This document shows positions 4,072 to 30,122 of a DNA stretch of 64,000 bases, one piece after another; position 1 is the first letter of the stretch, and each line of letters opens with the position of its first letter. Under the pieces are notes generated by a model. That model did not search any database. It saw only the letters and a list, made by a program, of their open reading frames with translations, and had not been told where the DNA came from. Source of the DNA: a virus; the IMG/VR virus record IMGVR_UViG_3300006749_000011, positions 1 through 64,000 of that record; one strand, 5' to 3'. Made by a program: the position numbers and the translations under genes.

Positions 4072-5316
4072 TTGTCAAAAATAAAAATATTAACACTTTC
4101 CGACCACCCTCTATCACCTTCCGGCGTTGGAACTCAAACGAAGTATTTCTGCGAGTCCCTTCTTAAAACCGGAAGGTATTCTATTATTAGCATGGGTGGC
4201 GCTATAAAACATCAAAATTATAATCAAGTTCTTGTTGACCCATATGGAGAAGATTGGAAAATAATTCCTGTCGATGGTTATGGAACACAAGAAATGATTC
4301 GCTCAATTATAAGACTAGAAAAGATTGAACTTATCTGGTTTATGACTGACCCCCGATTTTGGGGCTGGCTTTGGGAGATAGAAAATGAAATTCGTCCATT
4401 ATGCAAGATGGTTTACCATCATGTGTGGGATAATTATCCCTATCCTTATTTTAACAGGGACTATTACTTATCTAACGACCATGTGGTTAATATTTCGAAA
4501 CTTACTCATGATATTGTAAAAACAGTAGCACCAGAAGTTTCATCTACATACTTGCCACACTCAGTTAATCCAGATATTTTCAAGCCTTTGAGTGACCTTC
4601 AGATTGAAGAGATACGTACAAGTTCTCTACAAGAAGAAGATCGTTCAAAGGTTATTTTCTTTTGGAATAACAGAAATGCTAGGAGAAAACAATCTGGGAC
4701 TCTTATATGGTGGTTTAAAGAGTGGCTTGACAAAGAGGGCCTACATGATAAATCAAGCCTTATAATGCACACTGAACCTAAAGACCCTCATGGACAAGAT
4801 TTAGAACATATTATAGAACATCTAGGTCTAAATGATAGGCAAGTAATGCTCTCAACTCAAAAGATACCACCAGAAAGCTTAGCTCAAATTTATAATATGG
4901 TTGATTGTACAATTAATATATCAGACGCTGAAGGTTTTGGCTTAGCTACATTAGAGTCTTTATCTTGTGGTACTCCAATTGTTGCCACAATGACCGGCGG
5001 GCTTCAGGAACAAGTCACAGATGGAGAAAGTGAATTTGGTATTGGCCTCTACCCGAGAACCAAATCTGTCATTGGCTCTCAAGCAGTTCCCTACATTTAT
5101 GAAGATAGGGTAGACAAAGCACAATTTCACTCTGCTTTATCTAAGATATACAAAATGGGTAAAGAAGAAAGACGAAAGCTTGGGACTCTTGGTAGAGAAC
5201 ATGTTGAGAAAAATTACAATTTTAACAAACTACAAGAAAAGTGGGTTGAAATAATTGACAAAATTATAAAAAAAGAAGAAAGTTACAACGGAATTAGATT
5301 CAAGGAGGTTGCATAA
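4072..5316 (+). CDS. GT4-type glycosyltransferase
   Basis: 414 residues starting at a TTG; an AGAGGTG ribosome site is placed correctly upstream and the protein begins with the expected beta strand (KIKILTLSDHP), so the TTG is accepted. The C-terminal half carries the GT-B retaining signature DAEGFGLATLES around residues 285-300 (the E-x7-E element that binds the nucleotide sugar), followed by CGTPIVAT. This points to a cytoplasmic enzyme moving a sugar from a nucleotide donor to a glycan or DNA/protein acceptor. It is the first gene of the island and overlaps the next gene by one base. Confidence 0.88.
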   Translation: MSKIKILTLSDHPLSPSGVGTQTKYFCESLLKTGRYSIISMGGAIKHQNYNQVLVDPYGEDWKIIPVDGYGTQEMIRSIIRLEKIELIWFMTDPRFWGWLWEIENEIRPLCKMVYHHVWDNYPYPYFNRDYYLSNDHVVNISKLTHDIVKTVAPEVSSTYLPHSVNPDIFKPLSDLQIEEIRTSSLQEEDRSKVIFFWNNRNARRKQSGTLIWWFKEWLDKEGLHDKSSLIMHTEPKDPHGQDLEHIIEHLGLNDRQVMLSTQKIPPESLAQIYNMVDCTINISDAEGFGLATLESLSCGTPIVATMTGGLQEQVTDGESEFGIGLYPRTKSVIGSQAVPYIYEDRVDKAQFHSALSKIYKMGKEERRKLGTLGREHVEKNYNFNKLQEKWVEIIDKIIKKEESYNGIRFKEVA

Positions 5317-6551
5317 TGAAAAAGAAAGTATATATTAAAGCACCAATTTTATCACAATCAGGATATGGAGAACAATCTAGATTTGCTTTGAGAGCCCTTA
5401 AGAGCAGAGAAGACCTTTTTGATATCTATATACAACCTATATCTTGGGGTAAAACTGGATGGATTTGGAAAGACAATGAATTTAGACAATGGATGGATTC
5501 TAGAATTAAAATAACTCAAGAGTTGCTTTCTCAAAAATCCTTGACTCCTGAAATTAGTTTGCAAATAACAATTCCAAATGAGTTTGAAAAATTATGTCCT
5601 GTTAATATTGGCTATACCGCTGGTATTGAAGCGACTAGGTGCTCACCCCAATGGTTACCAAAGTGCAATGAAATGGATAAAGTGTTAGTTGTTTCTAATC
5701 ACGCAAAAACATCCATTATAGACACAGTTGCAAACGCAAAAAACAATCAAACTGGTGAAGAGTTCCCATATAAATGTGAAACCCCTGTTTCTGTTGTGTG
5801 GGAAAACACTGAAAGACATGACCCTGAGCCCTTGGAACAACTAGAATTGGAATATAACAATAATTTCTTAGTGGTTTCGCAACTTGGTCCAAGAAAAAAT
5901 TTTGAAAACACTGTCTGCTGGTTCGTTGAAGAGTTTATTGATCAAGAAGTAGGATTAGTTGTTAAAACTAACTTTAAGTCAAACTCAGTAGGTGATTTCT
6001 CAAAAGTAGAGGAGCACCTCAAGGCTTTACTTAAAAACTACAAAAATAGAAAATGTAAAGTTTACCTGTTACATGGTGACCTAACTGAAGGACAAATGAC
6101 CACTTTGTACACGCACCCTAAGATATCTGCTTTGATTAACATATCTCATGGTGAAGGTTTTGGCTTACCAATGTTTGAAGCTGCGAGAGAATCCTTGCCC
6201 ATCATCACAGTAGGGTGGTCCGGCCAGCTTGATTTTCTCTGTCATAATGGAAAAGAATATTTTCAATCTGTAGATTTTTCATTACGACCAATTCAAGACC
6301 AAGCTGTTTGGAATGGTGTTTTAGAAAAAGATTCTATGTGGGCTTTCGCAGACCAAGGTTCTTATAAAATGGCTTTAAGATATACCTTAAAAAATCTAGA
6401 CAAAGCAAGAGAACAGGCACTAGAATTACAAAAGAAAGTAAAAGATGAATTCTCAAACGATAAACTGTATAAACTGTTTATAGATGAAGTGTTGGGGTTT
6501 GACTCCTCTGTGATAAAACCTGAAGAAGAAGTGGTACTGGAGTTTGAATGA
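5316..6551 (+). CDS. GT4-type glycosyltransferase
   Basis: 411 residues, ATG overlapping the previous stop (TAATG) and preceded by a strong AAGGAGG. The C-terminal domain has VSQLGPRKNFENT and the signature HGEGFGLPMFEA near residues 278-289, typical of GT-B family 4 enzymes. It is similar in plan to the preceding enzyme, and the two probably add successive sugars. Donor and acceptor cannot be told from the sequence. ATGA overlap with the next gene. Confidence 0.87.
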   Translation: MKKKVYIKAPILSQSGYGEQSRFALRALKSREDLFDIYIQPISWGKTGWIWKDNEFRQWMDSRIKITQELLSQKSLTPEISLQITIPNEFEKLCPVNIGYTAGIEATRCSPQWLPKCNEMDKVLVVSNHAKTSIIDTVANAKNNQTGEEFPYKCETPVSVVWENTERHDPEPLEQLELEYNNNFLVVSQLGPRKNFENTVCWFVEEFIDQEVGLVVKTNFKSNSVGDFSKVEEHLKALLKNYKNRKCKVYLLHGDLTEGQMTTLYTHPKISALINISHGEGFGLPMFEAARESLPIITVGWSGQLDFLCHNGKEYFQSVDFSLRPIQDQAVWNGVLEKDSMWAFADQGSYKMALRYTLKNLDKAREQALELQKKVKDEFSNDKLYKLFIDEVLGFDSSVIKPEEEVVLEFE

Positions 6552-8158
6552 AAAAAATAGTCTTTATAGCTGACTTTTTTGAACACCAAGTTCAAGGAGG
6601 AGCAGAAATATGCGACAGTGTCTTGATAAAAACACTAAAAGAGATGGGTTGCAAAGTTGCAACCTTTAATTGTAATGAGTTTGGTGTTAAACATTTGGAA
6701 CTTTATCTTAACAATGGGTATAACTTCATAGTATCCAATTTTATGCTACTTCATGAGCATGTAAAAAGAAGATTAGAAGCAGTTGGTCATAGATATGTTA
6801 TAATGGAGCATGATCATAAATACATAACTAATAAAAACCCTGCACAATTCAAAAATTTCATTGCTCCCAAACATAACCTAATGAATGTGTCTTTCTACAA
6901 AGCAGCAAAAAGAGTACTATGTCAAACATCCAAACACCAAGAAGTGTTACAAAAAAACTTAGAGATATCAAATGTGGAGTCTCTAAGTTTTTCTCTTTGG
7001 TCTGACGAGCAATTAGACTTTTTAAGAAGTGTAGATACAACAAAAAACGGCAAAGCTTTTATTATGAAAGACCCAAATCCTATAAAAGGCTTACATAAAG
7101 CAGAAGAGTATTGTAAAAAAAACAACATTGAATATGATTTGATAGACAAACTTCCATACAAACAATTTATAAAAACTTTGGCAAAATATGAGAAGTTTGT
7201 TTTTTTTCCTACTTCTCTAGAATCATTCTCAAGAGTTATACTAGAGGCAAGGATGCTAGATTGTAAACTATTGACAAACAATCTCAATGGTTGTACATAC
7301 GAAGAATGGTTCAAAAAATATAAGGGTAAAGAGCTGATTAATTTAGTTCAATCCCAAAGACAAAGTGTAGCGGGTAGAATACTAGATTATTTGTTTAAAC
7401 ATGAAGAAACAAAAGATGGAGATGTAACCGTTATTCTTAATTGCTACAGAAGACCATACAATCTAAAAATGCAAATTGAAGCAATAAGAAATCAAACTGT
7501 CAAACCAAAGCAAATATGGCTTTGGATAAATCATCATGAAGATAATGAAGGTTTTGACTTTTCTGATATAGAAGCTGATAGAGTGTTTAAGAATGATTAC
7601 AACTGGAAGTTCTACGGCCGTTTCGCAGCTGCGTTATTAGCAGATACAGAATTTGTAGCAATGTATGATGATGATACAATTCCTGGAGCAAAATGGCACA
7701 ATAACTGCCTTGAAACTATGAAGACCCATGAGGGTATACTTGGTTCTGCTGGGGTCATTCTAAACGGTTCTAGGTACATGCAACACGATAGATGTGGTTG
7801 GCCCACAAGAAATGAAAAGGTGACACCTGTTGACCTTGTTGGACATTCTTGGTTTTTCAAAAGAGAGTGGTTAAGATACCTATGGCAAGAAAAACCTATT
7901 ACTTGGGATAACGGAGAAGACATACAATTTGGATTTATGGCAAAGATACATGGAGGAATACAAACATATTGCCCACCACATCCTGCTGATGATAAATCCA
8001 TGTATGGATCAATCCTTGGAAACGAATTAGGTATTGATGACAAAGCTACATCAAATAATAAAACTGTTTCACACCAACAATTCTTTTCTGAAAGAGATGA
8101 GTGTGTACAAGAAGGATTGAAAAAAGGGTGGAAAACCGTTAGAGGTGTTAAGCTGTGA
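6548..8158 (+). CDS. Two-domain glycosyltransferase (GT-B plus GT2/GT-A)
   Basis: 536 residues. Residues 1 to about 275 resemble a reduced GT4-like GT-B domain (PTSLESFSRVILEARML corresponds to the E-x7-E region). From about 290 a second domain begins with VTVILNCYRRPYNL, followed by YDDDTIPG near residue 374, the acidic metal/nucleotide-sugar motif of GT-A fold family 2 enzymes. Two catalytic domains in one chain suggest two consecutive transfers. The GT-B part lacks the usual N-terminal length, so it may be degenerate. ATGA overlap with the gene before; GTGA overlap with the gene after. Confidence 0.82.
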   Translation: MKKIVFIADFFEHQVQGGAEICDSVLIKTLKEMGCKVATFNCNEFGVKHLELYLNNGYNFIVSNFMLLHEHVKRRLEAVGHRYVIMEHDHKYITNKNPAQFKNFIAPKHNLMNVSFYKAAKRVLCQTSKHQEVLQKNLEISNVESLSFSLWSDEQLDFLRSVDTTKNGKAFIMKDPNPIKGLHKAEEYCKKNNIEYDLIDKLPYKQFIKTLAKYEKFVFFPTSLESFSRVILEARMLDCKLLTNNLNGCTYEEWFKKYKGKELINLVQSQRQSVAGRILDYLFKHEETKDGDVTVILNCYRRPYNLKMQIEAIRNQTVKPKQIWLWINHHEDNEGFDFSDIEADRVFKNDYNWKFYGRFAAALLADTEFVAMYDDDTIPGAKWHNNCLETMKTHEGILGSAGVILNGSRYMQHDRCGWPTRNEKVTPVDLVGHSWFFKREWLRYLWQEKPITWDNGEDIQFGFMAKIHGGIQTYCPPHPADDKSMYGSILGNELGIDDKATSNNKTVSHQQFFSERDECVQEGLKKGWKTVRGVKL

Positions 8159-9339
8159 AAAGTAATATCAAATTTATAAACCACGCTTGTTTTTTAATTG
8201 AAAATGATGACGGAGATGTGCTGTTTGATCCGTGGTTTTTTGGTAAAGTTTTTAATAATTCTTGGAGCTTGTTGAGAGAAACAGAAGACATTGATTTAAG
8301 CAATGTGAAGTACGTAATATTTACACACGAACATCCAGACCATCTACATTGGCCTACATTAAAAAAAATATCCAACAACAGTAGACATAAAATAAATGTC
8401 TTAGTTCCACTTAGAGAAAACAAAAACATTGTTGAAAATATTAGAAAACTAGGATGCAAATGTGCTGAAATTCCAAATAATTTAGAAGTTAAATTGGGCA
8501 ACTTTATGCACATAACAAATTATACCACTGGTCATGATTCAGCTTATGTCTTTAAAATAAATGATAAGGTTTATTTAAACCAAAATGATTGCCAGTTAAG
8601 TAATAAACAATGTGAAACAATATCTAAAAAATATCCAAATATTGATTTTTGGATGATACAATTTTCACTAGCTGGATATTACGCTAACGAAGCTGACCAT
8701 GAAGGACTCCAGAGAGCGAAAGATTTTCACATAAATATGATAAAAAGTTATCACAATTTTTTTAAACCACGGATTACTATTCCTTTCGCTAGTTTTGTAT
8801 TTTTCTGCAAGAAACACAATTCTTTTTTAAACAAATGGATAATAGACATAGAAGAGATAGGCAGTAAACTTAATGAAGTTGAAATACAAATTTTATTTTA
8901 TAACGATGAAATAAAAGATAACGACTATGACGAAAGAAATAATATAAACAAACAGAGATGGAACAAGGTTTTTAATAATAAAAAAGAAATTATCGAACAC
9001 CAGACAAAAACCGATGAAGAAATATTATTTGAGAGTGGAAAGTTTATCGATCTAGCGAACTCTAAAAATGGATACAAGCCTGGTTTGCTTTTTCTTGATC
9101 TTTACGACAAAACTAAAAGATACAAACTTGATCTAACAAATAGAGTCGCAAAATTTGTTGAAAAACAAGAACAGGATGATGCAAATGTTGCTGGAAAACT
9201 ACATTCCGAAGAGCTACTGTTTTTTTTAAGATTTCCATGGGGAGCTGACACTTTAAATATTACTTCTTGTTTTGAAATAAAAAATGAGGAACTTTGGAAA
9301 AACATACTACACTTTAAGGATCACTTATATGAGAGATAG
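8155..9339 (+). CDS. Metallo-beta-lactamase fold hydrolase, CMAH-like
   Basis: 394 residues from a GTG start with AGAGGTG seven bases upstream. The metal motif T-H58-x-H60-x-D62-H63 is clear, preceded by VLFDPWFFG and followed by YTTGHDSAYVF with a further His. The DPW...W...HPDHLHWPTLKKI pattern resembles the MBL domain of CMP-N-acetylneuraminate hydroxylase and UDP-MurNAc hydroxylase-like proteins, but I see no Rieske Cys-His cluster. It is therefore a metal-dependent hydrolase or a divergent relative. Position inside the glycan island suggests a nucleotide-sugar or glycan substrate (inference). Confidence 0.78.
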   Translation: MKSNIKFINHACFLIENDDGDVLFDPWFFGKVFNNSWSLLRETEDIDLSNVKYVIFTHEHPDHLHWPTLKKISNNSRHKINVLVPLRENKNIVENIRKLGCKCAEIPNNLEVKLGNFMHITNYTTGHDSAYVFKINDKVYLNQNDCQLSNKQCETISKKYPNIDFWMIQFSLAGYYANEADHEGLQRAKDFHINMIKSYHNFFKPRITIPFASFVFFCKKHNSFLNKWIIDIEEIGSKLNEVEIQILFYNDEIKDNDYDERNNINKQRWNKVFNNKKEIIEHQTKTDEEILFESGKFIDLANSKNGYKPGLLFLDLYDKTKRYKLDLTNRVAKFVEKQEQDDANVAGKLHSEELLFFLRFPWGADTLNITSCFEIKNEELWKNILHFKDHLYER

Positions 9340-10144
9340 AAACTATAAAAAAGAATTTGATAAAATGCTTGAGCTTGTAAAAGGAGATGAAGGTTTTTCT
9401 TTTGCAAGATTTTCCGATGGAGAAAGAACAGTAATGTTTAACAAGAAGCTAGTAATAGCAGAAAATTATTTTATCCAAGAAGATGTTTATGGAGATAGAA
9501 AAATTTCCGCACCAAGACCATATCTAGCAGAAGAAAGAAAAGAGTTTGATCCTAAAAAACACCACTTTTATCATAAAAAATTACTAGAAGCGTATAGGTT
9601 CAATAAAAAAAATTACTTTAAAGGAATTTGTGGAGCAAACGAAACAGAATTTGGACCATGTCACAAAATCATGCTTGACTTGCATGGAGGAGATAATGAC
9701 TCTTTGACATATTCAAATGTTCTACAAAATGGAAACTACTCAGATTTTATAGAAAGGATGGTGCCTGAGTTCAGCTCACAAACAGTATTTTTTGTTTCAA
9801 ATAGAAATTCAAATGTTGATAACTTGCCTTTTGATGTAGAGAGGTTTTTTCCAATTGGTAACAACTGTATGATAAATGATTATAAGCTTGTGGACGAGAT
9901 AAAAGAATTTATACAAAAGGAAAATGTAAAAAACTCTTTATTTTTGTTCTCAGCTGCCACACTTAGCAATTTTTTGTGTTATGAGTTATATAGCGAATTT
10001 GATGATAACAAGTATATGGATATTGGTTCTACTTTGGGGCCTCTTCTTTCTTTAAAAGGTTGGATGAATTCTAGAAATTATTTATTATCATATTGGTATG
10101 GACAACCTGGGCACCATATCAAGCAGGAGGATGTATGGAGCTAG
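9329..10144 (+). CDS. GT-D fold glycosyltransferase (DUF1792-like)
   Basis: The start is placed at ATG 9329, which has AAGGA about eight bases upstream and overlaps the previous gene by 11 bases; the earlier in-frame ATG at 9284 would overlap it by 56. The 271-residue product begins with the signature FSFARFSDGE (residues 23-32), matching the R-x-x-DGE (D-x-E) metal motif of the GT-D family first described in streptococcal serine-rich adhesin glycosylation. A nucleotide-sugar-dependent transfer to a glycan is the likely reaction. The assignment rests on this motif and the context. Confidence 0.7.
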   Translation: MRDRNYKKEFDKMLELVKGDEGFSFARFSDGERTVMFNKKLVIAENYFIQEDVYGDRKISAPRPYLAEERKEFDPKKHHFYHKKLLEAYRFNKKNYFKGICGANETEFGPCHKIMLDLHGGDNDSLTYSNVLQNGNYSDFIERMVPEFSSQTVFFVSNRNSNVDNLPFDVERFFPIGNNCMINDYKLVDEIKEFIQKENVKNSLFLFSAATLSNFLCYELYSEFDDNKYMDIGSTLGPLLSLKGWMNSRNYLLSYWYGQPGHHIKQEDVWS

Positions 10145-10518
10145 TACAGTGTGAAGAAAAGTATTGGGAAGATGTTAGACTACTAAGAAATATGGATGGA
10201 GTAAAACAAGGCTTCATACAACAAGAAGAAATTACTCCTGAACAACACATAACTTATATGAAAAAAAATAGTAATTTTTTTTATATTTGTGTTGACAAAG
10301 AAGAATTTTTAGGGTATACTGGAGTTATTAATAAAGACATACGTGTTGCTACCCACCCTAAGCATCAAAAAAAAGGTGTTGCTAAATTTATGATTAATGA
10401 AATAATGAAGATACACCCTGATGCTTTTGCAAAAGTTAAGCTAGAAAACAAAGCCAGTTTGAAACTTTTTGAGTCTTGTGGTTTTAAAAAGAAATTTTAT
10501 ATACTGGAGAAAGAATGA
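10135..10518 (+). CDS. GNAT family N-acetyltransferase
   Basis: Start chosen at ATG 10135, just after AGGAGG (10125-10130); an in-frame upstream start at 10093 lies inside the preceding gene. The 127-residue product has the acetyl-CoA binding motif A in VATHPKHQKKGVAKFM (Q/R-x-x-G-x-A/G), then KVKLENKASLKLFESCGFKK, a typical GNAT C-terminal strand-helix. In this island it likely acetylates an amino sugar made by the neighbouring aminotransferase, as in N-acylated deoxyamino sugar pathways; that is inference. ATGA overlap with the next gene. Confidence 0.88.
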   Translation: MELVQCEEKYWEDVRLLRNMDGVKQGFIQQEEITPEQHITYMKKNSNFFYICVDKEEFLGYTGVINKDIRVATHPKHQKKGVAKFMINEIMKIHPDAFAKVKLENKASLKLFESCGFKKKFYILEKE

Positions 10519-11129
10519 GACACAATCCTTTTGAAATAGTTAGAATGTTTGAGGAAACTGTAGCTGATTATACCGGTGCACCATATGCTGTATCGACTGA
10601 CAATTGCACTGATGCCCTTTTAATTTGCTGTGAGTACCTTGGGGTAGAAGAAGTCATAATACCTTCTAAAACCTACCTTTCGGTCCCGCAATCAATAATG
10701 CATGCTGGTGGTAAAGTTAAGTTTAAAGACTACCTATGGAATGGCGTTTACCAATTAGAGCCCTATCCAATATGGGATGCTGCAAAGAGACTTACATCTG
10801 GAATGTATATCCCGGGTTCCTTTATGTGTCTTTCTTTTCACATTAAGAAACATTTAAAAATTGGAAAAGGTGGAATGATTCTTACAGACAATAAAGATGC
10901 TGTAGAGTGGTTAAAAAAGGCTCGTTATGAAGGAAGAGGTCCTGTTAAGTATCACGAGGACAATATACAAATAAATGGCTATAATGCCTATATGTCTCCT
11001 GAAATGGCTGCAAGAGGTTTAATGCTCATGCAAAACTATCCAGAACATATGCCAGACTTACCAGAAGAGCCTTATTATAGAGATCTTCGTGAATTTGACT
11101 TATTTAAAAACATTGAGGTGATAGGGTGA
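10515..11129 (+). CDS. Short DegT/DnrJ/EryC1-type PLP aminotransferase
   Basis: 204 residues, against about 370 for the family. Retained elements are STDNCTDALL (PLP phosphate region, 27-36), IIPSKTYLSVPQSI, WDAAKR with D88 (PLP ring nitrogen), and SFHIKKHLKIGKGG, which puts the Schiff-base lysine at K112 when aligned to the family pattern. The C-terminal small domain is almost absent, yet the reading frame is intact and tightly packed, so it is probably a reduced form rather than a broken gene. Expected role: transfer of an amino group to a keto-sugar nucleotide, preceding the GNAT step. Confidence 0.75.
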   Translation: MRHNPFEIVRMFEETVADYTGAPYAVSTDNCTDALLICCEYLGVEEVIIPSKTYLSVPQSIMHAGGKVKFKDYLWNGVYQLEPYPIWDAAKRLTSGMYIPGSFMCLSFHIKKHLKIGKGGMILTDNKDAVEWLKKARYEGRGPVKYHEDNIQINGYNAYMSPEMAARGLMLMQNYPEHMPDLPEEPYYRDLREFDLFKNIEVIG

Positions 11130-11935
11130 AAATAGCAGTTTGTTTACATGGATATTATGGAACAGTTAGTACTGGTGACTTTTCCACTTCTAAAGGTGGA
11201 AAACAACACATCGAAGAACAGATTTTAAGTAAATGCAAAAATGCAGACTTTTATGTTCATTGTTGGCAACCAGAATTTAAGCAAGAAATAATCAACAACT
11301 ACAATCCAAAACAAAGTATTTTTGAAGAACAAATAGACTTTAAAAAAATTTGCTTAAAAAACAAAATTTATCAAAACTATTTTGATGAACTGTTTCAAAG
11401 AGAAAAAACAATGTATAAAAATGCTAATATCTACAGGATACTTAGTTTTTATTATTCTAGATGCGAATCTATTAAAATGGCACTAGATAAAGGTTATGAT
11501 TGGATTATCACCACTAGGTTTGATATATCTCAAAGGGGCGGTGATGAAGTTAATCAAATCAGGTTTTTAGTTGATCAAGAAAGAGACTATCTTTACACAA
11601 CTGAGTGGAATCAAAAAAATGCTGGATACGGAGATATGTGGTTCTACGGTTCAAATGAAATCATGAAAGAGTATTCAAAGATTTATAAAGCAGCTTTATC
11701 TGATTTCAAACCATTATCAAAATATGAAAAAACAGTAACAACAGCTTGGCCAGATTCAAATTATTTTGATGTACATAGTTTTTCTGATACAAGACAATTT
11801 ACAAACGAAGTTGACAAAAAAGAAAAAAGTAAATCATTAATGAAATTTCCTAAGTGGAGAGTAACTGATAGTCATTTATATCATAAATGGTTTTGCATGA
11901 ACAATGGTTTGTATGAAAAAACAAGGTGGGTGTAA
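11126..11935 (+). CDS. Putative glycosyltransferase-like protein
   Basis: 269 residues from a GTG start preceded by GAGGTG. The N-terminus (IAVCLHGYYGTV), the strand ADFYVHCWQ and the motif DWIITTRFDI near residues 126-135 resemble a loosely defined group of glycosyltransferase-like proteins with an R-x-D element found in polysaccharide clusters. The later segment GYGDMWFYGS fits a sugar-binding loop. No catalytic assignment can be proved from sequence alone. It overlaps the preceding gene by four bases (GTGA) and the following one by one base. Confidence 0.55.
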   Translation: MKIAVCLHGYYGTVSTGDFSTSKGGKQHIEEQILSKCKNADFYVHCWQPEFKQEIINNYNPKQSIFEEQIDFKKICLKNKIYQNYFDELFQREKTMYKNANIYRILSFYYSRCESIKMALDKGYDWIITTRFDISQRGGDEVNQIRFLVDQERDYLYTTEWNQKNAGYGDMWFYGSNEIMKEYSKIYKAALSDFKPLSKYEKTVTTAWPDSNYFDVHSFSDTRQFTNEVDKKEKSKSLMKFPKWRVTDSHLYHKWFCMNNGLYEKTRWV

Positions 11936-12648
11936 TGGAGGCTTATGTATTTTATTCACATTATGATTATTCTGATATTTGGCCTCTTATGTTTGGGCAA
12001 AGTAGAAAGTTTTTATCTGATAAAAAGAAGTATCTTGTAACAAATAAGATAGAACAAAAATTAAGTAACGACTGGCAGGTCGTACTCTATAACGACAACA
12101 AACCTTATCAACAAAGAGTTTATGAAAGTTTAGAAAAAATAGATGAAGAAATTGTAATCTTTCATCATGAAGACATGTTTTTGTTAAACAATCCTAACTG
12201 GAAAGTCATGAATAATTTGATAGACTTAGTTAAAAATGAAAAAATTGATTTAATTAAGTTACTAAAAGCCTCATACGACAACAGAGAGCATTATAAAGAA
12301 AGAAATAATATTTTCTATAATCCTGAAAATCTATTATTTGCAATACAACCAACAATAATAAAAAAAGAAAATTTAACAAAAATCTATAAACACACAAAAG
12401 GTGACAATATTTGGCAATTTGAAAAAAATTCAAATTCATTAATTAACTATTTGAACTATTCTAGTTGCTATTATCACGAAGGAACAGAAAATAAAAGAGG
12501 TATGTTTCACTGGGATAGTAATGTATACCCTTATATTGCCACGGCAGTTGTAAAAGGTCAGTGGGATTTTGGAACATACAAAGAAGAATTAACAACTCTA
12601 CATAAAGAATATAATATAGACACAAAAAAGAGAGGTAAATATGTCTGA
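11935..12648 (+). CDS. Uncharacterised glycan-cluster protein
   Basis: Start set at ATG 11935 (TAATG overlap); the upstream in-frame GTG at 11926 would extend into the previous gene. About 237 residues. Recognisable features are FYSHYDYSDIWPLMFGQ at the N-terminus, IVIFHHEDMFLL in the first half and FAIQPTIIKKENL later. This pattern occurs in proteins of unknown function in polysaccharide clusters and could be a GT-A-like fold, with the HED motif as metal site. No signal peptide or membrane segment. Function is inferred only from context. Confidence 0.5.
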   Translation: MEAYVFYSHYDYSDIWPLMFGQSRKFLSDKKKYLVTNKIEQKLSNDWQVVLYNDNKPYQQRVYESLEKIDEEIVIFHHEDMFLLNNPNWKVMNNLIDLVKNEKIDLIKLLKASYDNREHYKERNNIFYNPENLLFAIQPTIIKKENLTKIYKHTKGDNIWQFEKNSNSLINYLNYSSCYYHEGTENKRGMFHWDSNVYPYIATAVVKGQWDFGTYKEELTTLHKEYNIDTKKRGKYV

Positions 12649-13372
12649 AAAAATGAAAGTTTTAATACCACTAGCTGGAGCTGGGTCTAGATTCTCCAAA
12701 GCTGGTTATAAAGACCCAAAACCATTGATAAATGTAGCCGGAAAACCAATGATTCAAAGAGTTATAGAGAACATAGGTCTAATAGAAAACGAGCATATTT
12801 TTATTGTTCAAAAAGCTCACATGAAAAAATACCCAAAAATGAAAGAATATTTATTGAGTTGTGTAAAAAACAGTGTTTTAGTAGAGATTGATTCATTAAC
12901 AGAAGGAGCTGCATGTACCACTTTATTAGCTAAAGAGCATATAAATAATGATCAACCACTTTTTATTGCAAATGCCGACCAATGGGTTGATTGGGACTCT
13001 AAACACTTCCAAAACTACTGCAAAGGATTAGATGGTTGTATACCTTATTTCTTATCAGATAGCCCAAAACACTCATACTCTAGAGTAGACTATAGTACTG
13101 GTAATATAACACAAGTTGCTGAAAAGCAAGTTATAAGTAATTTTGCCACAGTTGGAATGTATTATTGGGCTAAAGGTTCTGAGTATGTTTCTTGCGCAGA
13201 AGAGATGATAAAAAGAAATATTAGATTTAATAATGAATTTTATATATGCCCAGTATATAATATTTTAATTAATTCAAGAGGCGGAGTGGTAAAACCATAT
13301 CCAATTTATGAAATGAGAGGAATGGGAACACCGGAAGAGCTTGACAAATTTTTAACTAAACTGGAGAAATAA
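12641..13372 (+). CDS. Sugar-phosphate nucleotidyltransferase
   Basis: 243 residues, ATG start preceded by AGAGG. The N-terminal signature LIPLAGAGSRFSKAGYKDPKP (10-28) is the nucleotide-binding loop of NTP_transferase enzymes; NADQWVD at 111-117 gives the metal-binding Asp, and the C-terminus has MGTPEEL. It should couple a phosphorylated sugar or polyol to an NTP, giving an activated donor. It sits directly upstream of the RuBisCO-like protein (TAATG overlap), so the product of that enzyme or a derivative could be its substrate (inference). Confidence 0.85.
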   Translation: MSEKMKVLIPLAGAGSRFSKAGYKDPKPLINVAGKPMIQRVIENIGLIENEHIFIVQKAHMKKYPKMKEYLLSCVKNSVLVEIDSLTEGAACTTLLAKEHINNDQPLFIANADQWVDWDSKHFQNYCKGLDGCIPYFLSDSPKHSYSRVDYSTGNITQVAEKQVISNFATVGMYYWAKGSEYVSCAEEMIKRNIRFNNEFYICPVYNILINSRGGVVKPYPIYEMRGMGTPEELDKFLTKLEK

Positions 13373-14562
13373 TGAAAATTTTTAGAAATATTAACGAGAT
13401 TAACAAAGACAAATACATTTTGTGTGATTATTTTTTATCTTCTAACAAAACACTTAGAGACGCTGCATGGGGTCTAAGTATAGGACAAAGTGTTGGGAAT
13501 CCCAATGTAAGAAATCACTGGGAAACCGATGAATTATTCGAGAATCATTCTTGTTTTGTGATTGGAGATGAAGAAGAATTAAAAACCAAAACTGAAGGAG
13601 AAGTCACTATTGCTTTTCCAATAGCAAATACAGACTTTAAGACTGATGGTATGTCACACCTATTATGTCAATTTATGGGTGGACAAATGGACATTGACAT
13701 TGTCAAAAAATGTCACCTTTTGAAAGTTTCTTTTCCCAAGCATATTGAAAATGATTACTTTTTAAAGCCAAAATACGGAATTAAAGGAATTAGAAAATTT
13801 ACCAGTACCCAAGACAAGCCTTTGTTCGGTGGTATTGTAAAGCCTAAAATTGGTGTTAATAGTGATATACTCTTAGAGATGGTAAAAGAGATGGTAGAAG
13901 GTGGTATTAATTTTATTAAAGAAGATGAAATTATGTCAAACCCTGCTTGTTGTCCGATTGAAGAAAGAGTGCCAAAAATTATGGAATACTTAAAAGATAA
14001 AGATGTAATTTATGCTGTTTGTATTAATTGTGATCCACATCATGTTATAGATAGAGTTAAAAGAGTTTATGAATTGGGAGCAAATGCTGTACATATTAAT
14101 TTTTGGAGTGGTCTCGGAGTCTATAAGTCAATCAGAGAACTGGATCTACCTATTTTCATTCATTTTCAAAAAAGTGGAGACAAGGTTTTAACAAACAAAA
14201 GTCATGATTATCATATCTCTTGGGATGTTATATGTGATTTTGCTGGTCTTATGGGTGTTGATTTCATACACGCAGGAATGTGGGGTGGTTATATGTCTGA
14301 TAATGAAGATGAATTGAGAGAAACTTTGAGAGTATTACACAACAGAGGAGTTATGCCGGCTCTAAGTTGTGGGATGCATGCAGGTCTAATAGAAGCCATA
14401 AACAAACGTTTTGGTATAGACTATATGGCTAACGTAGGTGGAGCTATACATGGCCATCCTGGTGGTTCTAGAAGCGGAGCTAAAGCGATCAAACAGTCTA
14501 TAGACAGAGAATATGGAAAAGAATATGAAATTGCTATTAAAAAATGGGGAATTGTTGAATGA
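13372..14562 (+). CDS. RuBisCO-like protein (form IV-type)
   Basis: 396 residues, coupled to the nucleotidyltransferase by TAATG. The C-terminal barrel is clearly RuBisCO large-subunit family: GGIVKPKIGV with K157 and K159 (spinach K175, K177), GGINFIKEDE with K183, D185, E186 (carbamylated K201 and metal ligands D203, E204), H264 (H294), H300 in DFIHAG (H327), S332 in LSCG (S379) and the phosphate loop VGGAIHGHPGG. Two carboxylase residues are lost: the R295 position is F265 and the loop-6 K334 position is Y307. Carboxylation is therefore unlikely; known relatives are enolases, isomerases or transcarboxylases acting on phosphorylated ketoses. Here it probably makes an unusual sugar for the island. 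Confidence 0.88.
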   Translation: MKIFRNINEINKDKYILCDYFLSSNKTLRDAAWGLSIGQSVGNPNVRNHWETDELFENHSCFVIGDEEELKTKTEGEVTIAFPIANTDFKTDGMSHLLCQFMGGQMDIDIVKKCHLLKVSFPKHIENDYFLKPKYGIKGIRKFTSTQDKPLFGGIVKPKIGVNSDILLEMVKEMVEGGINFIKEDEIMSNPACCPIEERVPKIMEYLKDKDVIYAVCINCDPHHVIDRVKRVYELGANAVHINFWSGLGVYKSIRELDLPIFIHFQKSGDKVLTNKSHDYHISWDVICDFAGLMGVDFIHAGMWGGYMSDNEDELRETLRVLHNRGVMPALSCGMHAGLIEAINKRFGIDYMANVGGAIHGHPGGSRSGAKAIKQSIDREYGKEYEIAIKKWGIVE

Positions 14563-14993
14563 TATTAATTTCCCACAGAGGAAACACAAATGGTGTAAAC
14601 AAAAAACTAGAGAATGACCCAGTTCATCTACAGTCCTTATCTGATATAGGAACCAATGTTGAGATAGATGTTTGGTTTGATGGAGAGCAATTGCTTCTTG
14701 GTCACGATGAGCCTAAACACAAAGTAGATTTAGATTTCTTACAAAATGAAAATTTTTGGTGTCATGCAAAAAATCTTTTAGCTTTAGAATATATGTTAGA
14801 AAATAAGATTCATTGTTTTTGGCACCAGTCTGATGATTACACTTTAACAAGTAATGGAGTCATATGGACTTACCCAAACAAATTAGCCACCAGTAAGTGT
14901 ATAATTGTTTGTAAAACATTTGAAGATACAGAATATTATTCAAACCTTAATATTCTTGGTATTTGTAGTGATTATATAGGAGAAATAAAATGA
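14559..14993 (+). CDS. Small GDPD/PI-PLC-like phosphodiesterase
   Basis: 144 residues, ATGA overlap with the RuBisCO-like gene. Glycerophosphodiester phosphodiesterase landmarks are present in order: HRG with H6-R7, EIDVW with E35 and D37 (metal ligands), and LGHDEP with H49, the second catalytic His. The protein is much shorter than typical GDPD enzymes (about 240 residues or more), lacking later barrel strands. It may cleave or form a phosphodiester on a small glycan precursor. Its tight coupling to the nucleotidyltransferase and RuBisCO-like genes suggests one pathway. Confidence 0.72.
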   Translation: MILISHRGNTNGVNKKLENDPVHLQSLSDIGTNVEIDVWFDGEQLLLGHDEPKHKVDLDFLQNENFWCHAKNLLALEYMLENKIHCFWHQSDDYTLTSNGVIWTYPNKLATSKCIIVCKTFEDTEYYSNLNILGICSDYIGEIK

Positions 14994-15943
14994 AACTAGT
15001 AGTAATAACAGGCTGTCTAGGCCTAATAGGTTCACACTTAACAAGACAATGTTTAGAAAAAGGTTGGCAAGTGTATGGTATTGACAAGTGCACATATGCA
15101 TCCAACGTACAATTTTTACCTGATTTTTATAAATATAATAACTTTACTTTTGTACAAGAAGATATCGCAGATTTAAAACATCTTCCTCATTGTGATTACG
15201 TTATAAATGTAGCCGCTGAATCTCATGTTGGCAATAGTATAATAGAATCTCAAGACTTTATAAAATCAAATGTTGAAGGTGTTAAAAATTTGTTAGATTT
15301 AATAAGAAAAAAACCTGCAAACATTGAACAAAGACCTGTATTCTTCCACTTTAGCACTGATGAAGTGTATGGCGATATTACCGAGGGCGAACATATCGAG
15401 ACAGATATTTTAAAACCTTCAAATCCATACTCTGCATCAAAAGCAGCAGCTGATATGTTGGTGTATGCTTGGGCTAGAACTTACGACATTGAGTATGTTA
15501 TTCTTAGACCCACTAACAACTATGGCATTGGACAGTATCCTGAGAAACTGATCCCTATTTGTGTAAAACAATTAATGCGTGGTAAGAAAATTAGATTACA
15601 CGACAAAGGGCTACCAATTAGAAACTGGCTTCACTCTGACGACACAGCAAACGCTGTTGTTACAATAATAGAATCAGGAATCACTAATCAAGTTTTTAAT
15701 GTAGCAGGTGGTTTTGAACAAAAAAACATTGAAACTACAATTCAAATTATAAAAGCTTTCTATGGAAACACACATAGAAACATTGAATCTTATCTAGACT
15801 TAGGTTACAAAAGACAAGGCCAAGACGTAAGGTATGCATTAAATGATAATAGATTAAGAAACTTGGGATGGAAACCAAAAAAGAAATTTGAGGAAGAACT
15901 TCCAAAAATAGTAGAATACTACAAAAATAATTTTAAATGGTAA
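14990..15943 (+). CDS. NAD-dependent nucleotide-sugar epimerase/dehydratase (RmlB-like)
   Basis: 317 residues, ATGA overlap upstream. The Rossmann loop TGCLGLIG is at 7-14, FSTDEVYGD places the catalytic pair D124-E125 used by 4,6-dehydratases, and Y147-x3-K151 (YSASK) is the SDR catalytic pair. RPTNNYGIGQYPEKLIP and RNWLHSDD match the dTDP-glucose 4,6-dehydratase family. It probably makes a 4-keto-6-deoxy sugar nucleotide, the usual substrate of DegT-type aminotransferases such as the one at 10515. Last gene of the island. Confidence 0.9.
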   Translation: MKLVVITGCLGLIGSHLTRQCLEKGWQVYGIDKCTYASNVQFLPDFYKYNNFTFVQEDIADLKHLPHCDYVINVAAESHVGNSIIESQDFIKSNVEGVKNLLDLIRKKPANIEQRPVFFHFSTDEVYGDITEGEHIETDILKPSNPYSASKAAADMLVYAWARTYDIEYVILRPTNNYGIGQYPEKLIPICVKQLMRGKKIRLHDKGLPIRNWLHSDDTANAVVTIIESGITNQVFNVAGGFEQKNIETTIQIIKAFYGNTHRNIESYLDLGYKRQGQDVRYALNDNRLRNLGWKPKKKFEEELPKIVEYYKNNFKW

Positions 15944-19973: not shown

Positions 19974-22900
19974 ATGACAACTAATAATTACAGAGATTTA
20001 CAAGAAACAGTTTGCGATACAGACAAAGAAAAGTCATTAGAAGAGTATTTGGAAGAAACTCTAGGTGAAGACTTGACCTTGGCTGATCCAGATATCTGCC
20101 CTGATTGTATCCCTAACAATGCTTTTGTTGAACCAGACATTACGGTACACGAAGGTGTGTATTATGATGAAAAAGAGTGTGACTATGTTGTTGTATTTAC
20201 CGCTCCAAATGGAGTCAATGACATATTCAAAGTACTAAACTTTGAATCCATTGATGAATATATAAAAAAACACAAAACAAACAAAATAGACACTGTGTTG
20301 AGATTTGGTCTGAAAAAGATCACACTTGAGTATAGTAAAACACAACAGAACGAATTTTATAATATTAAATCCAAGTCTGTTGACGAACCATTAGAGGCTG
20401 TTGCTAGGTTTGATTATTTATCAGACCCTACTGTCTCCTCAAACAGTCCGGTAAAAATAAGAATTAAGGTGTCAAAAAGAGTGATTGATGCCCTGCCAAT
20501 GGAAGAATCAGGTGAAGAAGATGAGACTATTCAAGCCGGTATAGACAAAGTAGAGATTGATGCTATTAAATTTTATGGTATGATGCTTAGAATGAGTTTT
20601 GGTTTAAGAGTGTATTCAAGTTATTGGAATCTACACCATACAAAAAGCAATGGGTTTCTTTATAAGAAAAAAGATGAGACAAAAAGTCCTATATTGCCAA
20701 ATAAAATCTATAGTTCTGATAACAACAAAGTCACACTAGAATCTGTAATTATGGATTTTAGAGCAGAGCTAACTGAGCTAATAAGAGACAAAGGATATAG
20801 AATCAATATTTATGCTTCTTCGCTTCCTTGGGATAATAAAAAAATAGAGAAAATAAGAATATTGTTTGACAACAGTGATCCTGAGAACTTATATAAAATA
20901 AAAAGAATATCCGTAAAACCATACGGGTGTAGATTTAGACCAATACACAGAGCAAACAAAAACCCAGATCGTTTTAAATCAGGATTCAAAGTTTTTAATG
21001 CCATGGCCTTGATTGCCAATATAAATGATATAGACGATGATTTAAGAGCTCCTGAACCTCCTACATGGCACGAGTTTTTACAGAAATATCTAGTACCAGC
21101 TGTAGCTTTAGAGTATGGAAACGAAACAGGAATAGTATCAGACCAAACATCTGCTTTGGCTTGTGCACTAGACTATTTTGACACAACTGCTTTTATACAA
21201 GGTGCTCTTGGTACTTTGGAGGCTGTATTTGGACTTTTAGCTTTCGAGAGCAACAAAGCTGCTTGTGAAGCCACACAAGGAAAATTAGACTCAAAAAATG
21301 ACCCACCAGAAGAGTTTGACTTTGATAGGGCTTGGACCAAGTATTACAACTCAGGTGATTCTTTTATATTAGAAATATACAAAAGACTTAGTAACATTGG
21401 TGACGGTAACAGTAACTATGGTGGAGGACAAGGGTTATACAGAGTTATAAATGCTTTAACTTTTTGTGAACTAACAAATTTAATTAAAAAATTAATTGAA
21501 TGTTTGCTTAGAGGAAAACCTTTTGAAGAAGTAGTCCCTTTAATCGTTAATCGTTTGATGAAAGATTTAAGCATGCGGCACTTAGGAAAATTATTAACAT
21601 CTCTTCCACCAGACCAAAGAGCAGAGGTTACTAGAGAAGTGTCCGCTATATTAGGACAACCCGCACCAGAGCCATGGTCTGATTCATGGGCTGAAGGCGG
21701 CTCAGCAGATGTCGAAGCAGCAAGCAATTTAGAATTCGGCACAGATAAAAGTGGACAAATTAAACAAACTTCAACAAAAGAAAGAGACGAGCTAACAAAA
21801 AAGAAAGATGAGTATGACCCAGACGAAGCTCAAAATATGATAGACGAAAAACAACAAGAAGTTGATAACTATACAGAAGAACTAAGACAAGAAGAAGAAA
21901 AGCGTGATGCCCTAGGCCCCGATCCGGTTCTTGTAAATACACAATCAGAAGACCCAATGCAGACTTCTTATGGAGGAAGTACGTCTATATACAAATCAGG
22001 CACTGATGATAAATTAAGACAAGCCCAGGATGACTTGGCAACCTTGGAACAAGAAAAAACGCATACTGAACGGAATATCAAAGCAAAAGAACAAACAATA
22101 GCAGACAACGAAGATGTCGAAGGTTATACTTTTGGATTTGTTTCAGGCCAAGCCGGTACATCAACACAACAGCAACTAAAACAAATGAACTTTGATGGAA
22201 AAATGAGCCAAGTTGTACAAAAAATAGCAGGAGCTTATATTGAAGCTTTCATGAAAGTTGTAGATCCTAGTGATCTTTTAGGATACTTAGACAAGCTACC
22301 AGTATCTACAGTTGTAAGAAATCTTTTAGCCATAATATTTCAAAGAGCGTATTGCCCAACACCTACTCTCAAAGCCTTTAGTGATATTGGTCAACTAATA
22401 CCAAAGTTTAAAATTGACATATGTGATCCAACATTTGCAATAAAAATACCAAAGCTTCCAAGATTACCAAGACTTATACCAAACTTTAGAGAAGAACTGT
22501 TTAAGAGAGTAAAACAAAAAATAATGGAATTAATAATGAAGCTCTTACTTAGCATAGTTATTAAAATTATTAAACTAATTGATGATGCTATTTGTAAAGG
22601 TTTGAATGCTTTGCTAGAAGGTCAAAATGATTTCCTAAATTTTCTAGGAAACTCTCTATGTGATGATGATGATCCTTCAAAAAACAATAGAAACCCCCAA
22701 CGCGCATTGGACGATGCTCTAAGAAAAGCTGGCTTAGATCCAAATGATAGAACTGTTAATTGCTTATCAAATTCAGTTGCTTCAGTAATGACAAAAAGAG
22801 AAATGATGTCTGCGTGTATAGGCACTTTGAATACACCTGGAGCTTATGATAGAGTTGCTAGATCAATACAAGTGAGCTGTCCGGACTTAGGAGATATGTT

Positions 22901-25900
22901 TCCAAATGGCGTGGCTGTAAAGTCTATATTCGATATATGTTCTGATTATATACCTTTAGACATAAAGTCAGCCATCGCAGATCAGTTATTTGATGAATCC
23001 TTGCAAGACACATTGGAAAGTCCAACTTGTGACTTGTTATGTTTATCTAATCAAGACTATAACAATTGGAATAAATATAGAGAGGGGCTATTAACTGGAC
23101 AGGGCATGCCGTCTGATCAAGCTCAAGAAGAAGTAGATAAAATGAATCAAAACACATCTGATGCTTTAAGAGATGCTTTAGATGATATAGAAAATGTTCA
23201 AGATAAAATAAGAGACGCTATAGCTGATCTTTACGGAGCAGGATCTGGTGGTCCAAAGCCGCCGGGTTGTGATCAAAATGGCCTAGCAGGTGGTGATGGT
23301 GATGATTCTAACTTGCCGGCTACTGCTTTTAATTCTAATAAATTGTCTGAGGATAAAAGTGATGATGAGATGTTTGTGCAAACAATCGAATCTTCATTTT
23401 ATAGACAACTAACAGGTAAAAGAAAATCAATTTTAGGCTTTATATTATCTGATACAAATGGAAATGTATACAGGTATCACCAATTCATGTCAAATGCTTT
23501 TATATTCAAAGATATAGTGTACGACACACAAGAAGATGCTGATGCTGATGAATTTAGATTAGCTTTTGGCGTTGATCCGCAAGCGTTTTTTCCTAAAACT
23601 ATAGGAGCTCATTGCAGAAACAGTCTGCTAGAGACCTTTGAGGGTGAAGATTTAGCTTATAAAAATGAAAATAATATAAATATTTTTACACCTGTTGAGT
23701 CAACTAAAAAAAGTGTTGACATATTTTCACAAAAAGACGCTAGTAAAAAAGCAGATTTGAAATTTGCTTACACAGAGGATGAAGAATACTATATTGAAAC
23801 TGCTTTTATTAATTCTTATAACAACGCTGATGGTGCTTCATACAAAGAAGAAGAAGACTTCGGCTTCACAGTTAGGTCAAGAAATACAGATGGTAACGAT
23901 ATAATGATTAATGAAAAATTTAGAAATAGCTATTCGGGGAGCTATTTTCTTAACCTAGAGTCTGTAAACGAACCATTTAACAGAGCTGCTTTTAAACATC
24001 TATTTAGAACAAAGATGCCATTTCCTAAGGGATATGATTTAATTTATAATGAACTTCAAACAATGTTCTTTAAATATGCAACAACTGCAATATTAAGTAG
24101 AGACATAGATTTATCAACAAATGAATTGCTACCAGATATTGATAGAGAAAAAGTTAAAAAGAAAAATGTTAGCGAGACATTAGAAGAGTTTGACACATTT
24201 TCGGAGCAAAGCTCAGCTGGGTTTGTATTTGGCCATAAGAGAAATAATATAACTGACGAAGATCTGATTTATTATAACCCAGATGGCAAAACTGAATATG
24301 ACCACGAAGAAGATGAAGAAATTTTAGGTATTAGTGCAAATCCTGATAAGGTGATATTTTTAGATCCTGAAATATATGGTGGAAAATACACTAAACCAAA
24401 AATATACATAAGTCCCGAGCCTCAATCTGGTTGGAAAAAAGTTTTTGATGCCATGTCAAAGAGCAACAGAGTTTGTGATGAATATGTAGATATTGTATTT
24501 CCATTTAAAAAATATAGAGAGAGGTTGGACAAATTAAAAAATGTAATACCTTTTGATAAAAGACTATATGAAGATAGAAGTTGTTTTCCTGATGTACCTT
24601 TTGACACTATATTACCACCTGAAACACACGCTCAAATAGATTTTATATGCAGGTCCTCTCTGTTAACCTACTCAATGTCAGAAATAGTAAAAACTTTACC
24701 TATTTTAACAAACTTGCACTACAATAAAGTAAACTATACAAATGTTTTAGAAAGTATAATTTTTAAAAACATGAAAAGAGAGATGTTCAAAGTAATCGGC
24801 GCAGCTGCAACAAGAGACAACAAGTATATCAGAAGACATAGGCATTGGCTAATCTTCTTAGAACAATGTGCGCAAATTTTTGAAAGAGAAGTGCAAATGA
24901 AAACAATAGAACCTACTGAAGAAGAAAAGAAAGTATTGGAAAAAATATTAATGATTAAAAAATATTATCATGATCCAACATTCGATGACATCTCAAAACT
25001 AAGAAAACCTGAAAACTTACAAGTTTCTTTAGGAGAAGAATACAGAAATTTTACCCTAGATGAGGAAACTATCAAAGATGAATTTTTTAGATTGGCTATT
25101 GGGTATGATGAAAATCAAGAACTATGTTACAAAGCATCAGGTTCTCAAACTAAAGACATTCAAAAGCCAAAAAGAATTAGAATAAATAAATTCAAGTTAC
25201 AAACTAGACTTTTTGCTATTAGAACAATTGAAAACGACATTTCAATTCTGGTTAAATCTTTACTAAATCAAGAAATAAAAAGATTTTTTGATGTTTTTAA
25301 CAAACAACTAGAGCCTTCAATCTTTGATTTGTCTAAGTATATGTTATCAGAGAACAAGATGTTTGTTGGTTCTCAACTTAATATTGGAAAATATCAAGAG
25401 ATAAAAAACCTTTCTAATAATTTTTCTCATAACTATGGTGACATATCAGAAGTTGAGCCAAACTTAGAAGGTAACTTTATAGATAACCTAGAGCTAAATG
25501 ATTCTCGGCTTGATGATATTAGAAAGCACGGTGGCTTTGCTTTGCAAAAATACATAAGAATAAATGAAAAAGAAATACCAATTGAACAAAAACCAGTGTC
25601 ATTTACCGAGAGAACTGTTGTGGATAAAAATGTTACCACCTTGCAAAATGTAAAGAATATATTATCCAAAGAAGATATAGATAAAGAAAAAAACTTATCT
25701 GATTATTTTGGTAATCTTAGAGTAGAAAATGACGAATTAACAGGCGAATCACCATTACACATGGGAGTTCGAATTTTATATATATGTTCCGAAGGTTTGT
25801 TGAAAAAATTTCAAAATATAGAAGAGTTTGATAACTTTTTAGAATTACAGCCAACAATTAACAGAGAAAAAGCAATATATATGGGAAAAAGCGATCATGG

Positions 25901-28680: not shown

Positions 28681-30122
28681 TGGCAATACATAGAATAACA
28701 GCAAGTGCTGACAACACAATCACAAACGCTTTTGGAGCCAACTTGACAACTAGAGGAACGGGCTCTAATATGGGTGCTTCTGATATTTTGGAAGTGTTTA
28801 CCATATATGGACAGAAAACAACCAACTCATCAGAGATTGCAAGAACACTAATACAGTTTCCTTTAGATACTATAACTACGAAAAGAAACAACAATACCTT
28901 ACCAGAAAGTGGTAGTGTTAATTGGATTTTAAAACTATATAACGCTAAGCATGTCGAATCAGTTCCGACAAGTTTTGATTTTTTTGTTTTACCTATATCA
29001 AAGCAATGGGAAGAAGGTGTTGGCTTAGATATGGAAGACTATTCTGATTTAACTTTTGACAGCACAGGTTCTAATTGGCTACAAGCCATACACTCTGCTT
29101 CTCATGATGCTGATGGTAAATGGACAACAGCAGGTGGAGACTATCTATATAATCAAGGGGTAACTGCGTCTTTTAAGTCTGGCTTAGAAGATTTAGAAGT
29201 TGATGTAAGTAATATAGTTGAGGATTGGGTAAAAGGAGCATCTGGTGGCGAATATAACAACTATGGATTTGGAATTTTTCTATCTTCCTCGCAAGAATCA
29301 GCACAAAAATCATATTATACAAAAAAATTCTTTGCAAGAGGTACTGAATTTTATTATAAAAGACCTGTACTAGAAGCAAGATGGAACAGCTCAGATAAAG
29401 ATAATAGAGGCAACTTTTTCTTAAGCTCATCGTTAGCCACAGGTGAACAAAATTTAAACAAACTGTACCTTTATAATAAACCACGAGGGGTGTTAACTAA
29501 CATACCTGGATTGCAAAATTCACAAATAAGCGCCTCTTTGTGTTCAAGTATAGGTGGTTCTTTTCTTGGTACTTTTACTGGTGGACAAGAACTTCCATCA
29601 ATTGGCATTTACACAGCATCTGTTTTTATAGCAGGAACTTATGACACTTTATATGATGTTTGGCATAACGGAGCTGGTGTTCAATATCACACAGGAACTA
29701 TATCTCCTAAATCTTTATCAGCAAACGTTAATAGTGAAGATACAAAATATGTTTTATCATTAACTAATAATAATCATGAGTATCATGTAAACCAAACAGC
29801 AAGGTTTAAATTATACAGTAGGTTAAAAAACTGGTCTCCAAATCTTTTTACAGTTGCGCAATCAAAACCAGAAAATATAATAATTGAAGATGCTTTGTAT
29901 AAGGTGCTCAGAATATCCGATGATTTAACAGTTATTGATTATGGTTCTGGTTCAACAAGTCACACCCAATTGTCATATAATGTATCAGGAAATTATTTTG
30001 ATTTGGACATGTCTTTATTTGAACCAAACTATCAATATGGTATCAAGTTTTCTTTTTACAACACATACTTATCTTCATATGTGGAACAGCCTTATATATT
30101 TAAATTTAGAGTGGTGGATTAA
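28680..30122 (+). CDS. Virion protein with DNRLRE/CBM-like domain
   Basis: 480 residues. The first part (IARTLIQFPLDTI, then WILKLYNAKH, FFVLPISKQWEEGVGLDMEDY) has the layout of DNRLRE-type beta-sandwich domains found in adhesins and carbohydrate-binding modules. The C-terminal half is beta-rich and Ser/Asn/Tyr-rich. It follows gp6 where T4 would have gp7 and gp8, so it may be a wedge or fibre-attachment protein. No enzyme motif seen. TAATG coupling on both sides. Confidence 0.62.
   Translation: MAIHRITASADNTITNAFGANLTTRGTGSNMGASDILEVFTIYGQKTTNSSEIARTLIQFPLDTITTKRNNNTLPESGSVNWILKLYNAKHVESVPTSFDFFVLPISKQWEEGVGLDMEDYSDLTFDSTGSNWLQAIHSASHDADGKWTTAGGDYLYNQGVTASFKSGLEDLEVDVSNIVEDWVKGASGGEYNNYGFGIFLSSSQESAQKSYYTKKFFARGTEFYYKRPVLEARWNSSDKDNRGNFFLSSSLATGEQNLNKLYLYNKPRGVLTNIPGLQNSQISASLCSSIGGSFLGTFTGGQELPSIGIYTASVFIAGTYDTLYDVWHNGAGVQYHTGTISPKSLSANVNSEDTKYVLSLTNNNHEYHVNQTARFKLYSRLKNWSPNLFTVAQSKPENIIIEDALYKVLRISDDLTVIDYGSGSTSHTQLSYNVSGNYFDLDMSLFEPNYQYGIKFSFYNTYLSSYVEQPYIFKFRVVD

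Follow-up and report, generated by a model that had tools for sequence, protein, structure and literature searches.

Why should a phage carry a RuBisCO homologue among its glycan-synthesis genes? The window analysed here spans 64,000 nucleotides (positions 1 to 64,000 of IMG/VR virus record IMGVR_UViG_3300006749_000011) and belongs to an 85.8-kb viral contig that may itself be incomplete. Genes for PhoH and an exonuclease lie to the left of a glycan island, and those for an endolysin, a gp25-type baseplate wedge and a terminase to its right, together marking the virus as a contractile-tailed phage. Three very large proteins are encoded in the structural region (19974-26450, 2158 aa; 30122-36679, 2185 aa; 36697-40554, 1285 aa), the latter two without a PHROG match. 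Inside the island, our ORF call places a 396-aa frame at exactly 13372-14562 (+ strand), encoding a RuBisCO-like protein (RLP) with an N-terminal alpha/beta domain followed by a (beta/alpha)8 barrel. We propose, with a probability of roughly 0.55, that this RLP belongs to a separate RuBisCO-like clade working in sugar-nucleotide biosynthesis, in which it would act as an Mg2+/carbamate-dependent enolising isomerase or epimerase, converting a ketose phosphate ahead of its NTP-dependent activation. Its role is probably in making an unusual surface sugar, not in CO2 fixation.

The gene sits in a glycan-synthesis operon, as the initial annotation had described, made up of about 12 genes that all run in one direction. 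Directly upstream is one of the core genes of the module described below, a sugar-phosphate nucleotidyltransferase of 243 aa (NTPt; 12641..13372, +; Pfam NTP_transferase 6e-9, NTP_transf_3), whose stop codon shares 1 base with the RLP start codon (TAATG). The nearest solved structure to the NTPt profile is 4evw, a nucleoside-diphosphate-sugar pyrophosphorylase (4e-34). The second core gene (14559..14993, +) encodes a mini glycerophosphodiesterase-type (GDPD-like) protein of 144 aa, its first 4 bases being the last 4 of the RLP gene (ATGA). It is followed by an SDR of the NDP-sugar dehydratase/epimerase type (14990..15943, +; 317 aa; Pfam GDP_Man_Dehyd 1e-55), for which the best NCBIfam model is dTDP_gluc_dehyt (292 bits, under the cut-off of 365). 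Further upstream, all on the + strand, are two GT4-like glycosyltransferase genes (4072-5316 and 5316-6551, the second match being weak), a metallo-beta-lactamase-fold protein of 394 aa (8155..9339), a GNAT acetyltransferase (10093..10518) and a DegT/DnrJ/EryC1 aminotransferase (10515..11129) that, at 204 aa against a model length of 360, is about half length and possibly degraded or split. Two recurrent families complete the series: a putative glycosyltransferase without a Pfam match (family c5; 11126..11935), present at 41 of 104 RLP loci, and family c25 (11926..12648), present at 7 of the 104.

Sequence and predicted structure agree on the superfamily. The RLP matches Pfam RuBisCO_large (PF00016) at 7.4e-32, scoring 111 bits where the cut-off is 30.1; its best PDB sequence matches are the MtnW structure 4nas (5e-34) and form III RuBisCOs, its profile reaching 195 bits against form III 8dht. 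An AF2 model built from a 67-sequence alignment (mean pLDDT 95) has the RuBisCO fold, and Foldseek ranks nothing but RuBisCOs and RLPs at the top (TM ~0.80-0.89, ~20-26% identity), with an MtnW structure first. Similarity to 1tel/2qyg was also noted in the PDB sequence search and with Foldseek. The BFVD viral structure library returned distant TIM barrels only, with no RuBisCO-fold match, and PHROGs holds no family for the protein. Against the NCBIfam models for form III RuBisCO and for the RuBisCO large subunit it scored 160 bits (cut-off 497) and 143 bits (cut-off 438), respectively. The gene is real and strongly constrained by purifying selection: in comparison with the nearest viral relative (88% identical), pN is 0.078 and pS 0.82, a pN/pS of ~0.10 that we used in place of standard dN/dS estimators as dS is saturated, and 199 of the 266 differences fall at codon position 3.

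MtnW structures rank high in both the PDB and the Foldseek searches, which speaks for a methionine-salvage enolase of the MtnW type, or a methylthioribulose-phosphate isomerase. The two MtnW-related equivalog models, on the other hand, gave only 159 bits (cut-off 409) and 124 bits (cut-off 514), the MtnW rows group in a different clade, the residues of loop 6 and beta-5 are not the same, and no mtn genes were found near the RLP, so that we regard this identity as highly improbable.

Active-site residues were mapped by aligning the clade together with forms I, II and III, MtnW and OiaX-type RLPs, and from a gap-free HMMER stretch to 2cwx. The reference numbers are those of spinach RuBisCO, carried over to alignment rows that are forms I-III sequences. 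Spinach K175 and K177 correspond to K157 and K159 in both comparisons, the Mg2+ ligands K201, D203 and E204 to K183, D185 and E186, H327 to H300 and S379 to S332, while the loop-6 lysine K334 corresponds without gaps to Y307. The initial annotation had recognised the RuBisCO-family motifs and read all of these positions in the same way, but its remaining two assignments lay two residues too early: H264, which it took for a kept H294, aligns with spinach H292 (some members have F here), and F265, its equivalent of R295, aligns with residue 293. The pair H294-R295 is instead Q266-K267, and H294 is therefore lost. Among 67 relatives K157, K159, K183, D185, E186, Q266, Y307 and S332 are invariant; position 267 is K in 56 and S in 10, and position 300 is Q in 16, all from one subclade. 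Tyrosine replaces K334 in every viral sequence aligned, and spinach K177 and G404 are both conserved in the clade.

Judged by residue content, with K334, H294 and R295 replaced, the RLP is predicted not to be a bona fide RuBisCO. A kept metal site and K157/K159 combined with the loss of these three residues points, on established RuBisCO chemistry, to an enzyme that would still enolise its substrate without carboxylating RuBP. Viral rbcL genes have been presented as carbon-fixation genes (PMC8506154, PMC12615777), and for one of them in this group of reports activity was described together with rbcS. A working RuBisCO, serving the virus as an auxiliary gene for carbon fixation, would fit these reports and the retained K175, K177, K201, D203, E204, H327 and S379. 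We give it very little credence here, given Y307 and Q266 in 67 of 67 relatives, K or S in place of R295, a clade outside forms I-III, a glycan-synthesis context and an island in which neither phosphoribulokinase nor RbcS was seen.

The subclade with Q at position 300 has a further peculiarity. In alignment A2, positions 105 and 300 (the N123 and H327 sites) are swapped as a pair: 51 sequences have Q (or N) with H, 16 have H with Q, and mixed cases are absent. We did not retain this covariation as strong evidence, since the tree needs only 1-2 changes to explain it, amounting to one switch and a statistically weak signal. Members of the H/Q subclade often also have S267 and A270, which suggests that they may use a second type of substrate.

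In a tree of 62 sequences that left out phototroph-type and R. rubrum-type RLPs, 26 of 26 sampled clade members fell on one side of a single branch (support 100/99), apart from the sampled forms I-III, MtnW and OiaX-type RLPs. Structure and tree agree that the protein is a superfamily member lying outside forms I-III, with no equivalent of K334, so neither of the refuting conditions named in the initial annotation held. The main chemical rival to isomerisation is decarboxylation as in OiaX, in which the RLP would decarboxylate a 3-keto-acid phosphate, or otherwise act on its C-C bonds, to give the sugar precursor, or would make a phosphorylated sugar acid. OiaX-type RLPs do share its fold and metal site, the RLP scores 118 bits to the OiaX model, and Q at position 300 in one subclade is also found in the sampled OiaX rows. 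That score lies far under the cut-off of 700 bits, however, and the separate clade, the loop-6 residue (K in OiaX rows, Y here), the K159 position (A or S in OiaX rows, invariant K here) and the lack of any recognised four-carbon acid sugar kinase near the RLP, as found in OiaX-type operons, all weigh against such a reaction, which we consider unlikely. It is genomic context only that leads us to prefer an isomerase or epimerase over a decarboxylase.

That context is highly recurrent. We clustered all ORFs around 104 RLP loci and found, within 8 genes of the RLP, an NTPt in 96, a GDPD-like protein of ~145 aa in 79 and a cupin of ~107 aa in 69. Counting loci non-redundant at 88% identity, an NTPt lies within 3 same-strand genes of the RLP in 45/51 viral and 12/16 cellular loci; for comparison, among the remaining genes of these islands only 17% have one within 2 genes. 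Homologues beside NTP_transferase genes, which the initial annotation had proposed to look for, are therefore the rule in viruses and cells alike, and the phage-directed role that it suggested is not exclusive, as cells carry the same module. The association also holds in reverse: fetched 10-kb flanks of the best 80 viral cupin loci contained an NTPt in 80, an RLP in 68 and a GDPD-like gene in 60. The cupin keeps the canonical metal motif HxHx4E (alignment A4). It is absent from the 85.8-kb, perhaps incomplete, record of the window, so it would not be essential to the RLP step everywhere. Two further observations sit less easily with the proposed role: in Azospirillum, on a 12.7-kb contig, the RLP has no recognisable module alongside, and Q replaces the H327 equivalent in one subclade.

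Variants of the module were seen as well. At viral loci that have no RLP, the NTPt is fused to HAD domains of the beta-phosphoglucomutase or PNKP type, and both HAD-NTPt and NTPt-HAD fusions adjoin the cupin and GDPD-like genes (L221:8634-11406; L278:8896-9999; L251:480-1583). At six SAR11 loci (L106, L107, L108, L110, L111, L113) the RLP is flanked by two NTPts, and the upstream copy, which has no GxGxRF signature, may be a non-catalytic partner.

The GDPD-like protein, roughly half the size of a GDPD, keeps the residues HRG, EN, ExD, GHD and K, of which H6, R7, E18, N19, E35, D37, H49 and K71 are invariant in 59 sequences (alignment A3). Its profile finds GDPD 7e0v in the PDB (4e-5), and the top Foldseek matches of its AF2 model (pLDDT 92) are GDPDs, at E-values of 3e-3 to 1e-2; at 144 aa it falls short of a full-length barrel and has no Pfam match. 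Retention of the catalytic residues would agree with a variant of our reading that differs in its product: a polyol or ketose would be activated as its CDP derivative and passed on in phosphodiester linkage, with the GDPD-like protein trimming or recycling phosphodiesters. LicD/fukutin-type enzymes use CDP donors for the transfer of phosphocholine or polyol phosphates, and three Legionella genomes have a divergent LicD gene adjoining RLP-NTPt. With no LicD homologue at the other 101 loci, and with the best NTPt scores going to sugar-1-phosphate transferases, this product seems quite unlikely to us.

The distribution extends well beyond one phage. At least 359 contigs among 2.9 million viral contigs of IMG/VR carry RLP relatives (296 in an earlier profile scan). 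Scans of IMG/VR with a form I/III alignment and with a form I alignment found no relatives, which shows rarity rather than absence, as each used two short peptide patterns of limited sensitivity and form II was outside these scans. None of the 50,697 phage records in INPHARED contains the RLP, leaving the family with no cultured phage anchor. In GTDB, 23 bacterial and archaeal genome loci carry it, in SAR11 single cells, other Alphaproteobacteria, Azospirillum oleiclasticum, three Legionella species, Patescibacteria, Elusimicrobiota, Verrucomicrobiota, Bacteroidota and nanoarchaea, although some short MAG contigs among them may themselves be viral. Within the Pelagibacteraceae, 2 of 147 sampled genomes have the gene, indicating an accessory rather than a core role there. 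The initial annotation knew of no characterised phage RLP. This still agrees with RbcL-like auxiliary genes on landfill and IMG/VR viral contigs having been mentioned but not characterised (PMC12607003), but the gene is no peculiarity of a single phage.

For the proposed isomerase or epimerase, we infer the most likely substrate and reaction as follows. The barrel would bind a phosphorylated ketose via glycine loops 7-8, and Mg2+ on carbamylated K183 would promote proton abstraction beside the carbonyl. With no CO2 added, the enediolate would be re-protonated at another carbon or face, giving a 1,2- or 1,3-isomerisation or an epimerisation. The NTPt would then activate the resulting sugar phosphate, and the glycosyltransferases of the island (LicD-type transferases in Legionella) would move the activated sugar to a virion or cell-surface glycan. 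The unusual phospho-sugar or sugar acid suggested in the initial annotation is likewise a putative product.

To our knowledge, RLPs of known function are all catabolic or salvage enzymes. A deep RLP clade tied to the making of sugar nucleotides would extend their range to biosynthesis and supply a new building block for glycans, and its defined partner genes make that role directly testable. The superfamily is known, and what appears to be new is how clade, context and proposed function come together; our literature search found no paper that links an RLP to glycan synthesis, capsule, or a cupin or nucleotidyltransferase. The clade also bears on published claims of viral carbon fixation through rbcL, as the genes reported for it may often belong here. 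More tentatively, and at somewhat less than even odds, this could be a new biosynthetic RLP class making a previously unknown NDP-sugar, with a cassette spread among phages, SAR11, Legionella, candidate-phyla bacteria and nanoarchaea, and with most viral ‘rbcL’ being the same enzyme.

How does the RLP compare with known systems? Earlier reports on viral rbcL either inferred carbon fixation or left the role open, and analysed neither a gene module nor the active site or the clade. The Global Ocean Sampling survey of 2007 described marine RuBisCO homologues outside the known forms, of unknown function (PMC1821046), later named clade IV-GOS (PMC10173188). K177 and G404 are poorly conserved in its unassigned homologues (PMC1821046), which, compared by the survey description alone, may be another group than the clade described here. 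Form III RuBisCO (8dht, 2cwx, 1geh/3a12) has the same two-domain fold (TM 0.87-0.88) and shares K175, K177, K201, D203, E204, H327 and S379, but the RLP differs in K334 (Y), in H294-R295 (Q-K/S) and in its separate clade, and its gene context is glycan synthesis where that of form III is nucleotide salvage. Characterised RLPs act on phosphorylated ketose derivatives (PMC6302742). Among them MtnW, the 2,3-diketo-5-methylthiopentyl-1-phosphate enolase (2oem, 4nas), has the same metal-ligand motif, but with S in loop 6, HPAVSG at beta-5 and mtn neighbours that the RLP lacks. OiaX, the 3-oxo-isoapionate-4-phosphate decarboxylase, likewise acts on a phosphorylated sugar derivative, but its operon is catabolic, with a four-carbon acid sugar kinase, and it keeps the loop-6 K and has lost K177.

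A parallel in gene content comes from T4-like cyanophages. S-SM2, Bellamy, S-CAM9 and B23 have the same NTPt, GDPD-like protein and, in some, cupin in a glycosyltransferase island. These cultured phages have no RLP, and some carry an aldolase, HAD phosphatase or kinase instead. In S-SM2 and Bellamy the NTPt, cupin-type proteins and GDPD lie beside a class II aldolase and small HAD phosphatases, with a PfkB-family kinase in S-SM2. A heptose pathway, which the annotation ‘phosphoheptose isomerase’ beside the GDPD would imply, was rejected, as the proteins concerned are HAD-type (PNKP-like) domains of 103-109 aa; the annotation of SSM2_207 (L372:6919-7230) and Bellamy 212 (L373:10513-10821) looks wrong. 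The gene sets of these two phages would represent sugar-phosphate chemistry feeding an NDP-sugar. We read these arrangements most simply as a modular route to nucleotide sugars, in which a ketose phosphate would be made or shaped by variable enzymes, the RLP here and an aldolase, kinase and HAD phosphatase in the cyanophages, then activated by a common NTPt and used by the glycosyltransferases of the island.
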